From positions 186,001-250,000 of the forward strand of contig NZ_FMZH01000005.1 in the NCBI RefSeq assembly GCF_900101435.1: a stretch of 64,000 bases of DNA, written 5' to 3'. Below, piece by piece: positions 53,049 to 63,921 of this stretch. Origin of the DNA: Pedobacter soli (GTDB lineage: Bacteria; Bacteroidota; Bacteroidia; Sphingobacteriales; Sphingobacteriaceae). How positions within the stretch are numbered: position 1 is the stretch's first letter; each line of letters starts with the position of its first letter. Under the pieces are notes generated by a model that was given only the letters and a program-made list of their open reading frames with translations, did not search any database and was not told the DNA's origin. The translations under genes and the position numbers were made by a program.

Positions 53049-53510
53049 ATGCCAAATACCTATACCCAATTACACATTCAATTTGTTTTTGCCGTTAAAT
53101 ACAGGGCTTCATTAATTCAACCAGATTGGAAAGAAAGGCTTTTAAAATATATTACGGGTATTTTCCAGGCCAATGATCATAAAATGATCCAGATCAATTG
53201 TATGCCCGATCACATCCATATTTTTATCGGCCTGCGCCCACATCAATCAATTTCGGGCTTAATTCAAAATGTAAAAACCGAAAGCTCAAAATGGATAAAC
53301 AATCAGGGTTTCTGCAAGGTTAAATTTGCCTGGCAGGAGGGTTACGGTGCATTTTCATATGCAAAAAGCCAGGTTCCAAGGGTTATTCAATATATCCAGA
53401 ATCAAGAGCAACACCACAGAAAAGAAAATTTTATAAAAGAATATACAGGTCTTTTAAGAACCTTTGACGTACAATATGAAGAAAAGTACATCTTTAAAGA
53501 ACCCGAATAA
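53049..53510 (+). CDS. IS200/IS605-family TnpA-like transposase (Y1)
   Basis: 153-aa Y1 HUH transposase, the normal size of IS200 TnpA. HUH motif: NCMPDHIHIFIGL. Catalytic tyrosine in VIQYIQNQEQHHRK near residue 118. No tnpB beside it. IS200 ends are subterminal hairpins, and a cluster of hairpins lies upstream; whether this is a mobile copy or a domesticated RAYT-like gene cannot be decided here. It lies between NUDIX and plsC genes on the same strand, breaking no gene. Confidence 0.9.
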   Translation: MPNTYTQLHIQFVFAVKYRASLIQPDWKERLLKYITGIFQANDHKMIQINCMPDHIHIFIGLRPHQSISGLIQNVKTESSKWINNQGFCKVKFAWQEGYGAFSYAKSQVPRVIQYIQNQEQHHRKENFIKEYTGLLRTFDVQYEEKYIFKEPE

Positions 53511-54311: not shown

Positions 54312-54384
54312 TATCAAGATCAGGAAGGGCCAAACGTTTAATTCCAGCTTTTGCTTACCGGCTCCGGACTTCAGACTCAGCACT
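54297..54384. repeat. Heptad arrays at the plsC-lytT border
   Basis: 54297-54324: GTATCAG, GTACTTA, GTATCAA, GATCAGG, spanning the plsC stop codon. 54357-54384: ACCGGCT, CCGGACT, TCAGACT, CAGCACT, reaching the stop codon of the convergent regulator gene. Two arrays of different consensus in one 75-bp spacer. Confidence 0.8.
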
Positions 54385-55132
54385 AAATATTCTTATTCCC
54401 GATTACCCTGAAAAATTCGTCGCGGTAAGTATCGCCCACCGGAATAATCTTCTGGTTAATGGTGATGCGGCTGCGCTCAATGCTTTCAATTTTATCTACA
54501 GCAACAATATACGATTTGTGTACGCGGATAAACTGGCTCTGCGGCAACGCCTCTTCCATTTTCTTCATGCTCTGTAACGTAATTACACGCTCATCTTTCG
54601 TAAAAATAGAAATGTAATCTTTTAAGCCTTCAATGTACAAGATATCGTGGAGGTAAATTTTTTGGATCTTATGCTCCGTTTTAACAAAAATATAATCCTG
54701 TACCGGGTTTGGTGTACCCGAAAACGGTGCTGGTGTAACCAAAGGTTGAGCAACACTTGCTGGGACCTCTACTGGCTTTACCTGGTTGTGTACCTTTTCT
54801 ACGGCCTTATAAAAACGATCGAAAGCAATTGGCTTTAACAGATAATCAGAAACATTCAGGTCGTAACTTTCAAGTGCATATTGCGGATAGGCCGTGGTTA
54901 AAATATAATGGCATTTGTTGCCTGCAATCTTCAAAAACTGTATGCCCGTTAATTCAGGCATCTGAATATCCAAAAACACCAGATCAATCCCCCCACCCTG
55001 CACAATTTGCAAGGCTTCAATGGGGTTTTCGCATCTTTTAACCATCGTTAAAAAGGGTACTTTTGAGATATAATCCTGTAAAATATCAAGCGCTAAAGGC
55101 TCATCATCAACAACAATACAGTTTAGGTTCAT
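54383..55132 (-). CDS. LytTR-family response regulator
   Basis: 249-aa regulator: REC domain (about 1-115) with phospho-acceptor Asp in DLVFLDIQMPE and Lys in LLKPIAFDRF. A Pro/Ala linker follows, then a C-terminal LytTR DNA-binding domain (about 150-249; FVKTEHKIQKIYLHDILYIEGLKDYISIFT, then FIRVHKSYIVAVDKIESIERSRI). It lies 60 bp downstream of a LytS-type kinase on the same strand, its probable partner. LytTR regulators bind pairs of ~9-bp direct repeats; a matching repeat is upstream of the kinase (56317-56349). Confidence 0.94.
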   Translation of the reverse strand: MNLNCIVVDDEPLALDILQDYISKVPFLTMVKRCENPIEALQIVQGGGIDLVFLDIQMPELTGIQFLKIAGNKCHYILTTAYPQYALESYDLNVSDYLLKPIAFDRFYKAVEKVHNQVKPVEVPASVAQPLVTPAPFSGTPNPVQDYIFVKTEHKIQKIYLHDILYIEGLKDYISIFTKDERVITLQSMKKMEEALPQSQFIRVHKSYIVAVDKIESIERSRITINQKIIPVGDTYRDEFFRVIGNKNI

Positions 55133-55192: not shown

Positions 55193-56218
55193 TTATATAT
55201 CAATCATCAGTTCGCAGGTGTAATGCGTAGCCGAATTTACAACATTTAATTTATATCTGTCAGGATAAACCAATTGTAAACGTCTTTCTACGTTGGTTAA
55301 ACCTACCCCACCCTGTGCATCTTTATTTAAATGGCTTTTTTTGTTAATTACACTAAAATGCAAAATCTTCTGGTTGGCAATAATATTTATTTTTACAGGC
55401 TCGGCCGGGTCGTTCACTACACCGTGTTTAAAGGCATTTTCAACAAACGAAATTAACATTAAGGGCACTATTTTCTGGTCGTCAATCTCGCCGTTCAGCG
55501 TAAGCTCAATGAAAGCACCATCTTTAAACCTGATTTTTTGCAGTTCGATATAATTGGTTAAATAATCTACCTCTTTACTTAATGAAACTGTTGGGGTATT
55601 GCTTTCATAAATCATGTAGCGCATAATTTCCGAGAGCTTCATAATTGCATCGGCAGTTTTATCCGATTTCTGATAAGCCAGCGAGTAAATATTATTTAAT
55701 GAATTGAACAGAAAATGTGGGTTTAACTGCGATTTTAAAAACTGGAGCTCCATTTCGCGGCGCTCGCTTTCTAAATTTCTTTGAATTCTTTCACTAGAGA
55801 ACCAATCGATGGTAAATTTAATAATGCAGCTGCTGATAATAAAAAAACCACCCACAAATGCCTTCCCGATAAAATATTCGTTTACATTATACTCGCTGCT
55901 GTGTCCCCGTACAATCATCATATCTGCAGGATTTAAGACTGCAATTATTGTTTTGACTAAAGCTGCAATCCCAATCATGAGAAAAAAAGCAATAACATAA
56001 AGCCAATACTTTTTTCTTTTCTTTATCAGTTCGGGGATTAAAAAAATATAATTAATGTAAAACACCGAAACATTCAAGATCCCAAAAACGCCAAAAGAGA
56101 TTAATTCCCTTTTAACAGTTACCTGCGAGGTACTTGTTATAAGAATAACCCCAGCACCTACTAAAATTATTGCCCAGAAAATACTATGTAATATTAGAAC
56201 TCCCTTATTTTCCTTCAT
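55193..56218 (-). CDS. LytS-like sensor histidine kinase
   Basis: 341-aa kinase. Four membrane helices in the first ~145 residues, with no extracellular domain, followed by a His_kinase (PF06580-type) domain. The phospho-accepting His is in LKSQLNPHFLFNSLNNIYSLAY (about 165-186), and the HATPase domain carries MLISFVENAFKHGV (N box) and GGVGLTNVERRLQL (G box). Such kinases with LytTR regulators typically respond to envelope stress, peptides or antibiotics. Divergent from a small membrane protein plus ABC transporter. Confidence 0.93.
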   Translation of the reverse strand: MKENKGVLILHSIFWAIILVGAGVILITSTSQVTVKRELISFGVFGILNVSVFYINYIFLIPELIKKRKKYWLYVIAFFLMIGIAALVKTIIAVLNPADMMIVRGHSSEYNVNEYFIGKAFVGGFFIISSCIIKFTIDWFSSERIQRNLESERREMELQFLKSQLNPHFLFNSLNNIYSLAYQKSDKTADAIMKLSEIMRYMIYESNTPTVSLSKEVDYLTNYIELQKIRFKDGAFIELTLNGEIDDQKIVPLMLISFVENAFKHGVVNDPAEPVKINIIANQKILHFSVINKKSHLNKDAQGGVGLTNVERRLQLVYPDRYKLNVVNSATHYTCELMIDI

Positions 56219-56316
56219 TTAAAATGTGTTTATCAATTAAAAGCGTAAAATCAATATTTGAGATAATCGCTTCATGCATCCAAAGTAAATAAACTTTCAA
56301 TTTAAACCGAACACAA

Positions 56317-56349
56317 TCTACCAACGGGCATTTTTTTTCTACCAACGGC
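56317..56349. promoter_or_regulatory. Direct repeat, likely LytTR operator
   Basis: TCTACCAACGG occurs at 56317-56327 and 56338-56348, exactly 21 bp apart, both followed by G/C-C. On the opposite strand each reads CCGTTGGT, close to the CGTT-type half-sites bound by LytTR domains (AgrA-like). Two helical turns apart on one face. It lies between lytS and the small gene of the ABC operon. Confidence 0.6.
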
Positions 56350-56476
56350 CCAATCGCCAAATTTTATCGACAAACGCCAAAAATGTCTGTTGATCTAGAA
56401 TCTTGAACACTTGGTATAATACATTTTAGCAGCTTGTTTTTCTTGACTTTCTTTGAATCATCAAAACGATAATAAC

Positions 56477-56734
56477 ATGAAAACTACATCAGCAATCAAC
56501 TTAAACAACCAGGCAGTAACTGCTGATGTCAGCTTCACTGTCTCTCAAATAAAACAATCGATCATGAAAAAGTTAGCAAACACATCACCATTTTTATTTT
56601 TATTATTTCCAGTATTTATGTTGATGATTTTAACCCTTACGTTTAACACCAACAAAAGCGATGCTGAAATTGTTGTAAAACCTGCTAAAGCTTCTACCAC
56701 AATTGTAAAACAAGTATCTGCTATTTTCAAATAG
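56477..56734 (+). CDS. Small membrane protein preceding ABC transporter
   Basis: 85-aa protein with one membrane helix (about 37-57: FLFLLFPVFMLMILTLTF) and a short polar tail. An internal ATG (MKKLANTSPFLFLL) could also serve as start. No family recognised. It is 6 bp before the ABC ATPase gene and divergent from the LytS/LytT pair: an accessory or target protein of the transporter is likely. Confidence 0.6.
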   Translation: MKTTSAINLNNQAVTADVSFTVSQIKQSIMKKLANTSPFLFLLFPVFMLMILTLTFNTNKSDAEIVVKPAKASTTIVKQVSAIFK

Positions 56735-56740
56735 GAAATA

Positions 56741-57649
56741 ATGGGTAATTACGCTATCGAAACTGTAGGCTTAAATTTCAACTTTGGCAATCAGGCCATT
56801 GTAAAAGACCTTTCGCTACAAGTACCCAAAGGCAGTATTTATGGTTTTTTAGGCCCTAATGGCGCTGGCAAAACCACTACCATTAAAATATTGCTCAACC
56901 TGTTAAAATCGCCTTCCGATCAGGTATTTATTTTCGGTAAGGAGATTAACAACAACCGGATAGCCATTTTAAAACGCGTGGGCGCCCTGGTAGAGCAGCC
57001 CGCTATTTATGGCCACCTAACTGGTAAAGAAAATTTAATAAACCGCTGTATATTACTCGGTATAAAAAAGAGCAAGGCCAGCGAAATGCTGGCCCTTGTT
57101 GGTTTAAGCGATGCTGCCGACAAAAAATCGAACAAGTATTCGCTGGGTATGAAACAGCGTCTAGGCATTGCCCTTGCACTCGTTTCCGATCCCGAATTAC
57201 TTTTGCTCGATGAACCCACCAATGGCCTCGATCCGAACGGCATTATCGAAGTGCGCAACCTCATGATAGACCTTGCCGTAAAACACCATAAAACTATCCT
57301 CGTTTCAAGCCATTTGCTGGCCGAAATAGAAAGAACAGCCACCCACGTTGGTATTATTAACAAAGGGCAGTTGCTGTTTCAGGGCACTATCGATGAGCTT
57401 CACCAACTTAGCAAACCCATGCTCGAAATTGAAGTTGATGATACTGAAAAAGCTGGCGCATTCATTTCAAAATCGGGTTATGAAATTGCAGGCCAAACCG
57501 ATAAAAAAATCACCATTCCATTTACCTCTGCGCAGGAAAGTGCTACTTTAAATGCATTATTGGTGCAAAATGGCTTTAAGGTAAGCAGCTTATATCAGCA
57601 GCGCAAAGATCTCGAAAATTTATTCCTCGATATTACCAAAACCAACTAA
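56741..57649 (+). CDS. ABC transporter ATP-binding protein (BcrA/lantibiotic-immunity type)
   Basis: 302-aa ATPase. Walker A GPNGAGKTTTIK (about 40-51), signature SLGMKQRLGIAL, Walker B LLLLDEPTNGLD, then the H-loop region SSHLLAEIERTATHVGIINKGQL. The C-terminal ~80 residues are an extension typical of BcrA-like ATPases. Pairs with the permease one base pair downstream. Exports or removes a peptide or hydrophobic molecule; substrate unknown. Confidence 0.93.
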   Translation: MGNYAIETVGLNFNFGNQAIVKDLSLQVPKGSIYGFLGPNGAGKTTTIKILLNLLKSPSDQVFIFGKEINNNRIAILKRVGALVEQPAIYGHLTGKENLINRCILLGIKKSKASEMLALVGLSDAADKKSNKYSLGMKQRLGIALALVSDPELLLLDEPTNGLDPNGIIEVRNLMIDLAVKHHKTILVSSHLLAEIERTATHVGIINKGQLLFQGTIDELHQLSKPMLEIEVDDTEKAGAFISKSGYEIAGQTDKKITIPFTSAQESATLNALLVQNGFKVSSLYQQRKDLENLFLDITKTN

Positions 57650-57650
57650 T

Positions 57651-58448
57651 ATGCGCTCTTTATACATCTCGTTAGTATCCGAATTTTACAAATCAAAGAA
57701 AACCCTGGCGTTTTGGGCAGCCATATTGTTACCGCTAATCATTTGCGGGCTCATTACTTTTGGTTTTTACTCGAGCTCCGAAAAAATTTTAAACTATCAT
57801 TATCCGCCCATAATGCTATGGGGGCAATACTGTGGGGCAGCGCTAAACGTAATGGGTTTACTGGTTATGCCATTCTATGTTATATTTATGGCTTTCTCGG
57901 TAAACAACATCGAACACAAAAACGATACCTGGAAAACCCTGTTTGCCCAGCCCTTAAACAAGTTTTCTATTTACACGGCGAAATACCTCTACGCAGTAGG
58001 CTTAATATTTATCTCCTTGTTTTTATTTGCCTCACTCACCTATGGTTTTGGGCATTTACTTCAGGTATTGGTGCCCAAATACAACTTTAATCAATATAAC
58101 CCGCTAAACATTTTAATCAACGCTTACACCAAATTATTCCTGTCATCGCTGGGTATTTTATCCCTGCAGTTTATCCTCAGTTTGGTGTGGGCCGATTTTC
58201 TTAAACCCATGGGCATAGGTTTTGTAGGCACCATTATGGGCATCATTACCGCCAATGTAGGCTGGAAATACGCTTATTTAATCCCTTACTGCCTGCCAAC
58301 CCTATCGTTAAGGATAACAAAAGTAAAAAAAGGTGCCAATCCCTTAGATTTTCCCGTTTTTACACAAGAAATATGGACCAGCTTAATTTATGCGCTCATT
58401 CTTTTTATCGTGGGTTATTTTATCGTGAGCAGAAAGAGCATTAAATAA
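57651..58448 (+). CDS. ABC transporter permease (BcrB-like)
   Basis: 265-aa integral membrane protein with six predicted helices. No catalytic motif. The helix pattern (AAILLPLIICGLITFGFY, then LVMPFYVIFMAFSVNNIEHKNDTWKTLFAQPLNKFSIYTAK) is that of ABC-2 permeases of the lantibiotic-immunity type. Its start codon comes one base after the ATPase stop, so the two are coupled. Confidence 0.88.
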   Translation: MRSLYISLVSEFYKSKKTLAFWAAILLPLIICGLITFGFYSSSEKILNYHYPPIMLWGQYCGAALNVMGLLVMPFYVIFMAFSVNNIEHKNDTWKTLFAQPLNKFSIYTAKYLYAVGLIFISLFLFASLTYGFGHLLQVLVPKYNFNQYNPLNILINAYTKLFLSSLGILSLQFILSLVWADFLKPMGIGFVGTIMGIITANVGWKYAYLIPYCLPTLSLRITKVKKGANPLDFPVFTQEIWTSLIYALILFIVGYFIVSRKSIK

Positions 58449-61302: not shown

Positions 61303-61947
61303 ATGAGATTATCTCCCATAGTTATCGCCGAAACTGTATGTCTTATCTCTGCAGTTGCATTAGTATGGAAAGATAAATATGCTTTTTGGAAAGTAGTTAC
61401 CTGTTACATAGCAATAGCATTATTAACTGAGCAGTACGCAGCCTATCTTTCATCCAGGCATCAGCACAATTTATGGTTGTTTAATATCTTCCTTTTCTTT
61501 GAGATCAGTACGATATTATTCGGCCTTTACCATTGTATTAAGGCATATATTAACCCTAAGCCCATATTTGCTATTGGCGGCGGAATTATATGCCTTAGTT
61601 ATGTTATCTTTTTATTTAAGCAGCCTTTCAGCGAATCCAATAACCTGACCATAAGCGTAATGTCGGTAGTTTATGCGCTTTACTGCCTTTATTATTATTA
61701 CCTGCTGTTAAAAGACGAGAACTTTATCGAAATTAAAAACCATCCCGAATTCTGGTGGGTAACCGGTGTTTTATTCTATTATTTTGGCAGCACCATGGCC
61801 AATATTTTTGATGGTTTATTTAATGTGAAAATTATTGGATATGCCACTTTAAGATATTGTATTTACGTACTGTTAAATTATATTTTATACAGCCTTTGGA
61901 TTTACTCCTTTATATGCAGAATGAAACAACGAAAATTGCAATCTTAG
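61303..61947 (+). CDS. Multi-pass membrane protein, possible sensor
   Basis: 214-aa protein with about seven predicted membrane helices and no recognised domain (many Tyr/Phe in loops: YYYYLLLKDENFIEIKNHPEFWWVTG). It overlaps the next gene, a kinase without its own sensor domain, by 34 bp. It is therefore the likely membrane sensor part of a split receptor; this is inference from context. Confidence 0.65.
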   Translation: MRLSPIVIAETVCLISAVALVWKDKYAFWKVVTCYIAIALLTEQYAAYLSSRHQHNLWLFNIFLFFEISTILFGLYHCIKAYINPKPIFAIGGGIICLSYVIFLFKQPFSESNNLTISVMSVVYALYCLYYYYLLLKDENFIEIKNHPEFWWVTGVLFYYFGSTMANIFDGLFNVKIIGYATLRYCIYVLLNYILYSLWIYSFICRMKQRKLQS

Positions 61948-62705
61948 TTGCCATTTCAACACTTATATTTCTTTTAATGCCCATATTCTTATTGCTTTAT
62001 ATCAGGTCATATAACCGGCATAAGAAGAACCATGTACTCGAAAAGCAAAATATGCAGCAAAAGTTCGAAGCTGAAATGCTGCAGGCGCGTGTAGAGGTGC
62101 AAGACCAAACCATGCAGAGCATTGCTACCGAATTGCATGATAATGTAGGCCAGCTACTCAGCCTTACTACACTTACCCTCAATTCGGTAAATTTATCCGA
62201 TGAGGTTAAAGCCAAAAAGAAAATCGAGAATTCGCTACAACTGGTTAATAAATCTATTAAAGAACTGAGAGAACTGGCTAAACTCTTACATGGCGAGCAG
62301 CTGGTAGAAAACGGACTTGGTCATGCCATTGATCAGGAAATTAGCTGGCTCAGCAAAAGCGGTGCTTACGAGCTCCAGGTTAACAATACCTTATCAGAAT
62401 CAGATTACACCTCGCCTGATAAAGACTTGATTATCCTGCGTTTGCTCCAGGAAATCATCAACAACATGATTAAGCATGCACAGGCCACCCAGATCCAGAT
62501 CGACGCCTATCTTGCAACAAATGTGCTGCATTTAAAGGTAAAAGAAAATGGCGTGGGTTTTAACCCCGACGAAATTAAAGCCCGTAAATCAGGCATGGGC
62601 CTCAATTCTATTTATAAAAGAATTGAGATGATCAATGGAAAATTAATATTAAATTCGGCACCGGGAAAAGGTACTTCCATTTCAATAGAGATCCCCTATC
62701 CTTAA
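61914..62705 (+). CDS. Sensor histidine kinase (HisKA_3 type)
   Basis: 263-aa kinase with one N-terminal membrane helix (about 9-30) and no periplasmic or PAS domain. DHp domain: IATELHDNVGQLLSLTTLTLNSV with phospho-His; HATPase: LLQEIINNMIKHAQA (N box), VKENGVGFNPDEI, KSGMGLNSIYKRIEMINGKL (G box). ATG 61914 lies inside the preceding gene's 3' end. Partner regulator starts 4 bp downstream. Confidence 0.92.
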   Translation: MQNETTKIAILVAISTLIFLLMPIFLLLYIRSYNRHKKNHVLEKQNMQQKFEAEMLQARVEVQDQTMQSIATELHDNVGQLLSLTTLTLNSVNLSDEVKAKKKIENSLQLVNKSIKELRELAKLLHGEQLVENGLGHAIDQEISWLSKSGAYELQVNNTLSESDYTSPDKDLIILRLLQEIINNMIKHAQATQIQIDAYLATNVLHLKVKENGVGFNPDEIKARKSGMGLNSIYKRIEMINGKLILNSAPGKGTSISIEIPYP

Positions 62706-62709
62706 TAAT

Positions 62710-63351
62710 ATGCAACACCCTAATATCGCTATCGCTATCGTTGATGACCATACCCTTTTCCGCTCAGGGCTGGCCAGTTTATTGGAAGAATTTGATGAAA
62801 TAGAAGTAAAATTTGAGGCCATAAACGGAATCGACCTGCAATCTAAAATCAATAACCATCCAGATGTTCAGCTGGTATTAATGGATATTAACATGCCGGT
62901 TATGGATGGTTTTGCCGCTACTAAATGGGTTAAAACCAATTTCCCGAATGTACATGTACTTGCGCTGAGTATGCTGGAGGATGAAAAAGCCATTATTGGT
63001 ATGCTTAAGGCCGGGGCCGGGGGCTATATGCTTAAAGAGTCTACCCCATCCGATTTATTTGCAGCAATTAAAGTAATTGTAGAAAAAGGCTTTTTCGTAA
63101 ACGAACTGGTATCGGGCAGGCTTTTGGTTGCATTGAAAGATACCGATGCAAAACCCATATTTTCGGCGCGGGAGCTTACCTTCCTGCAGCACTGCAGCAC
63201 CGAACTTACCTACAAGGAAATTGCCGACATTATGAATGTGAGCCCGCGCACTGTTGATAACTACCGCGAATCGCTTTTTGCCAAACTCAACATCAAATCG
63301 CGCACCGGGCTGGTAGTGTATGGCATAAAAAACAACCTCATTACCATTTAG
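62710..63351 (+). CDS. NarL/LuxR-type response regulator
   Basis: 213-aa regulator: REC domain (about 1-120) with phospho-acceptor Asp in VLMDINMPVMDG and GAGGYMLKES. LuxR DNA-binding domain (about 145-210; FLQHCSTELTYKEIADIMNVSPRTVDNYRESLFAKLNIKSRTGLVVYG). Partner of the HisKA_3 kinase just upstream. Targets unknown. Confidence 0.94.
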   Translation: MQHPNIAIAIVDDHTLFRSGLASLLEEFDEIEVKFEAINGIDLQSKINNHPDVQLVLMDINMPVMDGFAATKWVKTNFPNVHVLALSMLEDEKAIIGMLKAGAGGYMLKESTPSDLFAAIKVIVEKGFFVNELVSGRLLVALKDTDAKPIFSARELTFLQHCSTELTYKEIADIMNVSPRTVDNYRESLFAKLNIKSRTGLVVYGIKNNLITI

Positions 63352-63540
63352 CCCGGCAAAAAAATACAAGCCAAACAACTCATTAACAATACATTAACGC
63401 CTCCTCCTTCAGTCTACTAACCGAATCAGTTGCCTCTTTATTTTTTTTCTAATAATTATCAAATAAAATTTGGATAACTAACCAATTAGTTTTAACTTTA
63501 GTTTAAGCAAATTATTTTGCCTGTCCTTATTATTATTACC

Positions 63541-63921
63541 ATGATGGAAATTAAAGATTTAACTAAAGCCGAAGAGCAGATTATGCAGGTTTTATGGCAA
63601 CTGGAAAAAGCATTCGTCAAAGAAGTAATTGACGAACTGCCATTACCTAAGCCAGCTTACAACACCGTTTCAACCATTATCAGAATCCTCGAAACCAAAG
63701 GATTTATTGGTCATGAAGCATTCGGGAAAGCACACCAGTACTACCCTTTAGTAAGCAGAGAAGAGTATAAGCGCCATGCAACAGAAAAACTGTTGGGCAA
63801 TTACTTCGAAAATTCAGTAGAGAGCATGTTCTCTTTCTTTGTTAAAGAAGAAAAACTGGATTTAAGTGATGTTGATGAGATTTTAAAAATGATCAATAAC
63901 ATTAAACACAAGCCAAAATGA
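63541..63921 (+). CDS. BlaI/MecI/CopY-family repressor
   Basis: 126-aa winged-helix repressor: IKDLTKAEEQIMQVLWQLEKAFVKEVIDELP and AYNTVSTIIRILETKGFIGHEAFGKAHQYYPLVSREEY are the DNA-binding half; the C-terminal half dimerises. The start is ATG 63541 or 63544 (adjacent codons); an upstream TTG frame lies in the probable promoter. Overlaps the next gene by 4 bp (ATGA), the typical blaI-blaR1 pair, in which proteolysis of the repressor derepresses target genes. Confidence 0.93.
   Translation: MMEIKDLTKAEEQIMQVLWQLEKAFVKEVIDELPLPKPAYNTVSTIIRILETKGFIGHEAFGKAHQYYPLVSREEYKRHATEKLLGNYFENSVESMFSFFVKEEKLDLSDVDEILKMINNIKHKPK

Follow-up and report, generated by a model that had tools for sequence, protein, structure and literature searches.

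Here, we identify two LytTR-type direct-repeat elements, E1 and E2, between a two-component system and a divergent gene for a small membrane protein (SP) in Pedobacter soli. Very probably, judging from sequence, the 21-bp repeat of this locus forms half of a switch with two divergent operators that serves a LytTR response regulator (RR), which in its phosphorylated form would activate both the operon that it shares with its histidine kinase (HK) and the SP operon. E1 points at the HK-RR promoter and E2 at the SP promoter, both elements are conserved across genomes, and E2 moves with SP when SP sits away from the kinase. The window, i.e., the whole stretch of 64,000 nucleotides that was analyzed, has HK-RR on the minus strand at the left of the locus and SP, an ABC transporter ATPase and a permease on the plus strand at the right:

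54383 to 55132, minus strand: LytTR response regulator (RR), with PF00072 (E 9.8e-17) and PF04397 (E 1.1e-19)
55193 to 56218, minus strand: LytS-like histidine kinase (HK), with PF06580 (E 3.1e-28)
56281 to 56288, minus strand: -7-like element TTACTTTG of the HK-RR promoter, TTTG at +41 from the proximal E1 half
56317 to 56325, minus strand: E1 promoter-proximal half-site GTTGGTAGA
56338 to 56346, minus strand: E1 distal half-site GTTGGTAGA, 21 bp from the proximal half
56389 to 56397, plus strand: E2 distal half-site GTTGATCTA
56410 to 56418, plus strand: E2 promoter-proximal half-site CTTGGTATA, 21 bp from the distal half
56448 to 56455, plus strand: -7-like element TTTCTTTG of the SP/ABC promoter, TTTG at +42 from the proximal E2 half
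56480 to 56734, plus strand: SP, a single-pass membrane protein of 84 aa; its last 56 aa, starting at the ATG at 56564, form the family core
56741 to 57649, plus strand: ABC transporter ATPase (PF00005), an optional passenger of the operon
57651 to 58448, plus strand: ABC-2 type permease (PF12730), an optional passenger

The receiver domain, the LytTR domain and the PF06580 kinase expected of a LytTR two-component system all score above the Pfam cut-offs. By hydropathy, the HK N terminus has four hydrophobic segments; the receiver and LytTR parts of RR are kept across 14 aligned orthologues, and the LytTR domain gives weak alignments to ComE (4cbv, E 0.053) and AgrA (3bs1, E 0.62). An IS200-like Y1 transposase gene (53049-53510) lies close to the locus, and the window also holds a second two-component system with a HisKA_3-type kinase and a regulator-like gene (61857-63351) and, 5 kb past the permease, a BlaI-like gene (63517-63921). 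In one genome without the transporter, SP is followed by a BlaI-like repressor and an M56/TonB gene (L159, 3461-5721).

Two divergent elements and their promoters

The exact 21-bp repeat described in the initial annotation is borne out: TCTACCAACGG stands at 56317-56327 and again at 56338-56348, each copy reading CCGTTGGTAGA on the minus strand, on which the pair forms E1 (GTTGGTAGA-N12-GTTGGTAGA, 56317-56346). The same annotation listed a further half-site, TCTGTTGAT, at 56386-56394; these letters are present, but GTTGATCTA at 56389-56397 is the better unit, and its partner CTTGGTATA at 56410-56418 had been missed. Instead of one operator plus a stray half-site, the region thus holds two candidate operators, one per divergent promoter, and the further half-site is the first half of E2 (GTTGATCTA-N12-CTTGGTATA, plus strand, 56389-56418). 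Both elements have the two half-sites, the 21-bp period and the GTT core of LytTR operators, except that most Pedobacter loci have CTT in the proximal E2 half, where several other loci have GTT; this half reads GTTGGTCTA at several loci of other genera.

Bacteroidota promoters have a -7 element of the form TAnnTTTG, to which TTTCTTTG and TTACTTTG are imperfect matches. Counted from the promoter-proximal half-site, TTTG on the SP side lies at +42 in 61 of 61 Pedobacter sequences, at 9 of the 11 other-genus loci with SP adjacent and at 9 of 9 loci with unlinked SP, so that E2 has the fixed position just upstream of a promoter that is expected of an operator. On the HK side, 54 of 59 Pedobacter sequences have TTTG at +41 or +42, but only 3 of 20 from other genera do. 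In the passages of PMC6193735 considered here, LytTR activator repeats are mostly ~10 bp upstream of the -35 element and a Bacteroides promoter is given as TATCTTTG (Table 3); by analogy, the placement of E1 and E2 resembles that of these activator sites.

It is very unlikely that E2 is no more than a core promoter for the SP operon, kept for RNA polymerase, and E1 the sole regulator site. E2 does abut the promoter, and its halves share just 5-6 of 9 bases in the Pedobacter loci printed; however, the halves are 7/9 identical at five g37 loci and 9/9 identical in one Parapedobacter, where E2 is the perfect repeat GTTGGTCTA-N12-GTTGGTCTA (L256), they are always 21 bp apart, and a separate -7 element stands at +42. 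Offset 21 gives the best self-match of E2 in 76 of 88 motif hits (repeat fetches counted).

Several further features of the region were recorded. The leader ATCAAAACGA (56460-56469), directly past the -7 element, is nearly invariant across Pedobacter. A third half-site-like sequence, TCGACAAACGCC, lies at 56367-56378, 29 bp past the second E1 half, and two loci (L040 and L051) have ~20 extra bp in this region, with one more TCGACAAACGCC-like copy. No Rfam family reached its gathering score in 56150-56800, and a sigma-70-type scan was unhelpful (11 sites vs 7.6, sd 2.5, in shuffles).

Linkage is the reason for assigning the sites to RR, and two observations count against this assignment, i.e., the 25 LytTR matches in the P. 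soli genome (6.0 Mb) and similar repeats at some paralogue loci. When 23 of the 24 other LytTR loci were scored (L153 was without an upstream region), only few lay above a crude background; L152 and L154 have 21-bp GTT repeats of their own. It is nevertheless decidedly unlikely that another of these regulators binds E1 and E2 or that the regulator represses: while the sign of control is unreadable from sequence, E1 follows HK across genera, and a site just upstream of the promoter is LytTR activator geometry in the parts of PMC6193735 used here. Activation by the linked RR is thus the reading that we favor. Elsewhere in the same genome, 21-bp repeats with a third imperfect copy lie between Mfd-like and DUF2752 genes (L130 4996, G000 C10:361695), and four near-identical ATACCAACGG..CGACGAACGC copies of the type ACCAACGG..CGACGAACGC each stand upstream of a 198-aa ORF (L132 and L133, G000 C9 and C16); the one such ORF tested is DUF2807.

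Conservation of E1 and E2 across genomes

All 36 Pedobacter genomes searched have an HK orthologue (the G021 copy is partial, with one internal stop), and 25 have a permease match at E≤0.001, which was not found in the other 11. We compared the window and 24 orthologous transporter loci. HK is divergent at 22 of the other 24 loci, and RR was found at 21; those lacking RR are one contig end and two loci without both HK and RR (L048 and L050). E1 and E2 are present at 25 of 25 transporter loci, the window counted, with the consensus TCKACNAA-N13-TCTACNAA for E1 and, in opposite orientation, GTTNATCTA-N12-[CAT]TT[GT]GT[AC]TA for E2; the distance from E1 to E2 is 72-73 bp, except for 92 bp in L040 and L051. 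A further 13 HK loci are without an adjacent transporter (the 11 genomes without a permease match and 2 with a detached transporter). E1, E2, their spacing and the divergent SP are found at all 13, and the sequence retrieved around them shows no ABC homologue.

An alignment of 59 distinct intergenic regions from Pedobacter has invariant columns within each of the four half-sites and within the -7 element while the flanks have diverged, which is a strong argument against chance. The relaxed motif TCKACNAA-N13-TCKACNAA, with 2 exact matches in the 6.0-Mb genome, is rarer genome-wide than its backwards control when ≤1 mismatch is allowed (19 vs 38 matches), i.e., there is no enrichment and no hint of a large regulon. 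Although this is what a chance or low-complexity repeat would give, the invariance described above and the shuffles (1 match of the repeat pair in the window vs 0 in 100 dinucleotide shuffles) leave that explanation almost no probability.

To follow the elements further, we trained weight matrices on the 59 Pedobacter sequences only and applied them to 20 loci outside Pedobacter that were picked for spread, with uncorrected p-values from per-locus shuffles given out of 300. E1 is at p≤12/300 at 17 of these loci and not significant at L205, L211 and L218. For E2, the 11 loci with SP adjacent all give p≤2/300, and the 9 without it all give p≥47/300. In a named set, 36 of 80 returned loci were scanned. 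The first 15, at HK identity 42-76%, comprise 4 repeat genomes already used and 11 new ones (seven Mucilaginibacter, three Parapedobacter and one Pedobacter); E1 is at p≤10/300 in all 15 and E2 at p=0/300 in 14, the sole miss being Desertivirga, whose SP sits elsewhere. SP was detected by a first script at 7 of the 14 E2-positive loci and on a second reading at the other 7. The remaining 21 loci, at HK identity 31-41%, have scattered weaker repeats and no SP by script.

Absence of the repeat from orthologous loci would have spoken against an operator; it is kept at 25 of 25 loci with and 13 of 13 without the transporter and in other genera. The earlier proposal of a LytTR-type operator between the LytS-like kinase with its LytTR regulator and the divergent small-protein/ABC operon thus gains support from position and conservation, and the assignment of E1 and E2 as putative LytTR operators is strongly supported.

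The small membrane protein and its E2 element

SP is a single-pass membrane protein of ~56 residues with no accepted match to a known family. The core of the SP in the window has no matches in Pfam, NCBIfam or PHROGs; the 84-aa form has no Pfam match and reaches 18.7 bits with NCBIfam NF047665 against a cut-off of 90. Other members of our SP alignment (A2, 42 of 71 distinct SP sequences) reach only E≥0.0046 in Pfam and ≥0.022 in NCBIfam and have no PHROGs match at 0.001, and the best E among PDB sequences is 0.064. The motif is SPF-LLL-PV, in its family form MKKL-x-N-x-SPF-LLL-x-PV. Hydropathy gives one hydrophobic helix, and the AlphaFold model (mean pLDDT 70, tail low-confidence) shows a helix at 9-29 only. 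The median dN/dS is 0.17 (458 non-independent, equal-length pairs of 61 distinct sequences). Among 247 genomes sampled across the class, an SP profile hit 7, each of them in the family of P. soli (Sphingobacteriaceae). In P. soli and related genomes, SP has an in-frame 28-residue N-terminal extension (56480-56563); in some other genomes, the ATG of the core lies at the equivalent distance of +24/25 from TTTG.

Unlinked copies of SP are, at the sequence level, the strongest evidence for the switch. A profile of E2 plus promoter, built from 45 of 63 distinct sequences, finds one high-scoring site in the P. soli genome (E 2e-16; next 0.2). In all 60 Pedobacter genomes scanned, many of them training sources, it finds at least one site at E≤5.4e-9. 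Five Pedobacter genomes have a second site (E≤1.6e-12). In G023 and G024, this site precedes SP-ABC-permease; in G006, G013 and G019, it precedes an SP gene with no ABC or kinase nearby. Nine other-genus genomes, none of them in the training sets, lack SP beside HK and have it elsewhere (E 3.7e-10 to 3e-5), and each of these unlinked SP genes is directly preceded by a match to the E2-promoter profile (E 4.8e-9 to 0.0012), with TTTG at +42 and E2 at p=0/300 in 9 of 9. The idea that E2 is lost together with SP at these nine HK loci was therefore wrong: both sit elsewhere in the same genomes. In the eleven other-genus genomes with SP beside HK, SP and the E2-promoter occur together, but these were used in training.

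E1, by comparison, still stands at the kinase in the nine separated genomes, clearly so in six. The four g43 unlinked SP genes have no E1-like pair (p 134-242/300), while the five in g35 and g30 do (p≤4/300), which suggests that E1 may serve both promoters. This pattern indicates that E2 belongs to SP and E1 to HK-RR, and that E1 may also help SP. At three unlinked loci, the neighbors of SP are housekeeping or unrelated genes (a LacI-family regulator, a beta-CASP nuclease and aspartyl-tRNA synthetase). The sequence retrieved around HK from the two g35 genomes showed no RR homologue. In two g37 genomes (G289 and G216), a second E2-like promoter with TTTG at +42 precedes a secreted-looking protein of ~125-134 residues (L338 and L339), which is perhaps a target of another LytTR regulator.

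SP and HK do not coincide perfectly. Of 301 genomes drawn from the family, 201 have HK at E≤1e-75, and SP is found at E≤1e-4 in 8 of 20 genomes in which HK falls short of that threshold; one of the genomes below it, G095, has HK and RR beside SP, so that a comparison of the kind "no HK, no SP" is not clean. Ten SP loci from below-threshold genomes gave a clear E2 with TTTG at +42 in four (L344, L346, L347 and L349), a weak E2 in two (L341, p=11/300; L345, p=2/300) and no convincing E2 in three (L340, L342 and L343), the L342 hit (p=5/300) overlapping an upstream coding gene; the SP match of L348 falls inside a 484-residue frame. SP without a convincing E2 in these three genomes, all with HK short of E 1e-75, suggests that SP may also act outside the circuit.

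The initial annotation had taken the repeat as a tie between the two-component system and the divergent small protein plus transporter. A tie mainly to the transporter does not hold, since the 11 of 36 genomes without a permease match keep E1, E2 and SP, and unlinked SP genes carry E2. Because SP is kept at all 13 loci without the transporter, SP and not the transporter is the constant neighbor. For the same reasons, it is unlikely that a single operator couples peptide sensing to a BcrAB-like detoxification transporter as a LytTR counterpart of BceRS. The switched operon includes the transporter in 25 of the 36 Pedobacter genomes, as it does at 7 of the 11 loci from other genera that have SP beside HK, and the nearest curated relatives of its subunits include lantibiotic-protection and -immunity subunits; however, the scores stay below the curated cut-offs, both for TIGR03740 (ATPase, 228.9 vs 309.75 bits) and for TIGR03733 (40.5 vs 117.2). 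A BceRS-BceAB module consists of a BceS-type kinase, an OmpR-type regulator and an FtsX-type permease, whereas the matches here are PF06580, LytTR and PF12730. Judged by its distribution and profile scores, the transporter is an accessory of the switch that weakly resembles lantibiotic-immunity subunits.

Proposed circuit and comparison with known systems

We suggest the following model. Upon a stimulus, HK would autophosphorylate and pass the phosphate to RR, whose dimer would bind the paired half-sites, two helical turns apart, on one face of the DNA. At E1 and E2, phosphorylated RR would recruit RNA polymerase and activate both divergent promoters; E1 would thus confer positive autoregulation on HK-RR, and E2 would induce SP and, where present, the ABC transporter. 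SP would be the main conserved output. Because this output is one tiny membrane protein, we favor a role for SP in modulating HK or the membrane, with feedback on the kinase the preferred form. More tentatively, the system may be a near-private loop of the Sphingobacteriaceae, in which the only deeply conserved targets are the loop itself and an SP of a new family, SP feeds back on the four-helix kinase or relays its signal through the membrane, the transporter joins the loop as an accessory or drops out of it, and the SP-plus-E2 cassette duplicates and relocates while answering to the same regulator in trans; we consider this possible, with a less than even chance of being correct in full.

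AgrCA- and ComDE-type systems combine a LytTR response regulator with a 21-bp direct repeat. The system described here shares both but has a PF06580 kinase, and nothing marks SP as a secreted pheromone. MgrB-type proteins are small membrane feedback regulators. SP is likewise small, single-pass and apparently under two-component control, a likeness by description, and we hypothesize that SP could, like MgrB, bind and inhibit its kinase.

The closest described operators are those of HdrR and BrsR, for which the passages of PMC6193735 considered here give a pair of short direct repeats (9-12-9, a period of 21 bp) immediately upstream of the promoter. E1 and E2 share the direct repeats, the period and the promoter just downstream. 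In the table rows shown in that source, the -10 hexamer is mostly 41-42 nt from the proximal 9-mer by our own arithmetic, and the TAnnTTTG-like octamer here is at about 41 when the LytTR consensus is used to place the 9-mer. Unlike HdrR and BrsR as described in those passages, the regulator here has a receiver domain and a kinase partner and faces two divergent operators, with half-sites that resemble GTTSRTCTA and a promoter of the Bacteroidota TAnnTTTG type. The same passages define an LRS as a LytTR regulator encoded with an inhibitory membrane protein, distinct from two-component systems; here, a receiver domain and a kinase are present and SP is divergent. The Bacteroides 'LRS-like' operons of PMC6193735 (Table 3) are similar in their LytTR regulator, direct repeats, TATCTTTG promoter and phylum; they differ, as far as these passages go, in having 11-bp repeats at a spacing of 11 bp, a regulator that carries transmembrane segments and another membrane protein, and no kinase is mentioned in them, while one is present here.

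Literature searches found nothing on LytTR with Pedobacter or Mucilaginibacter or on the HK-RR/SP module; for LytTR with Sphingobacteriaceae, one Tenacibaculum study turned up. A LytTR mutation in Flavobacterium johnsoniae, its contribution unknown, is mentioned in a passage of PMC10197871. LytTR direct-repeat operators are known. As far as these searches reach, three things are new: the double divergent arrangement in the Sphingobacteriaceae, its constant spacing from a TAnnTTTG-like element, and the family to which SP belongs. Altogether, these findings provide a testable LytTR operator grammar for the family, i.e., GTTSRTCTA-N12-STTRGTCTA followed by TTTG at +42 from the second half, and they point to an unnamed family of small membrane proteins as what this LytTR system really controls.
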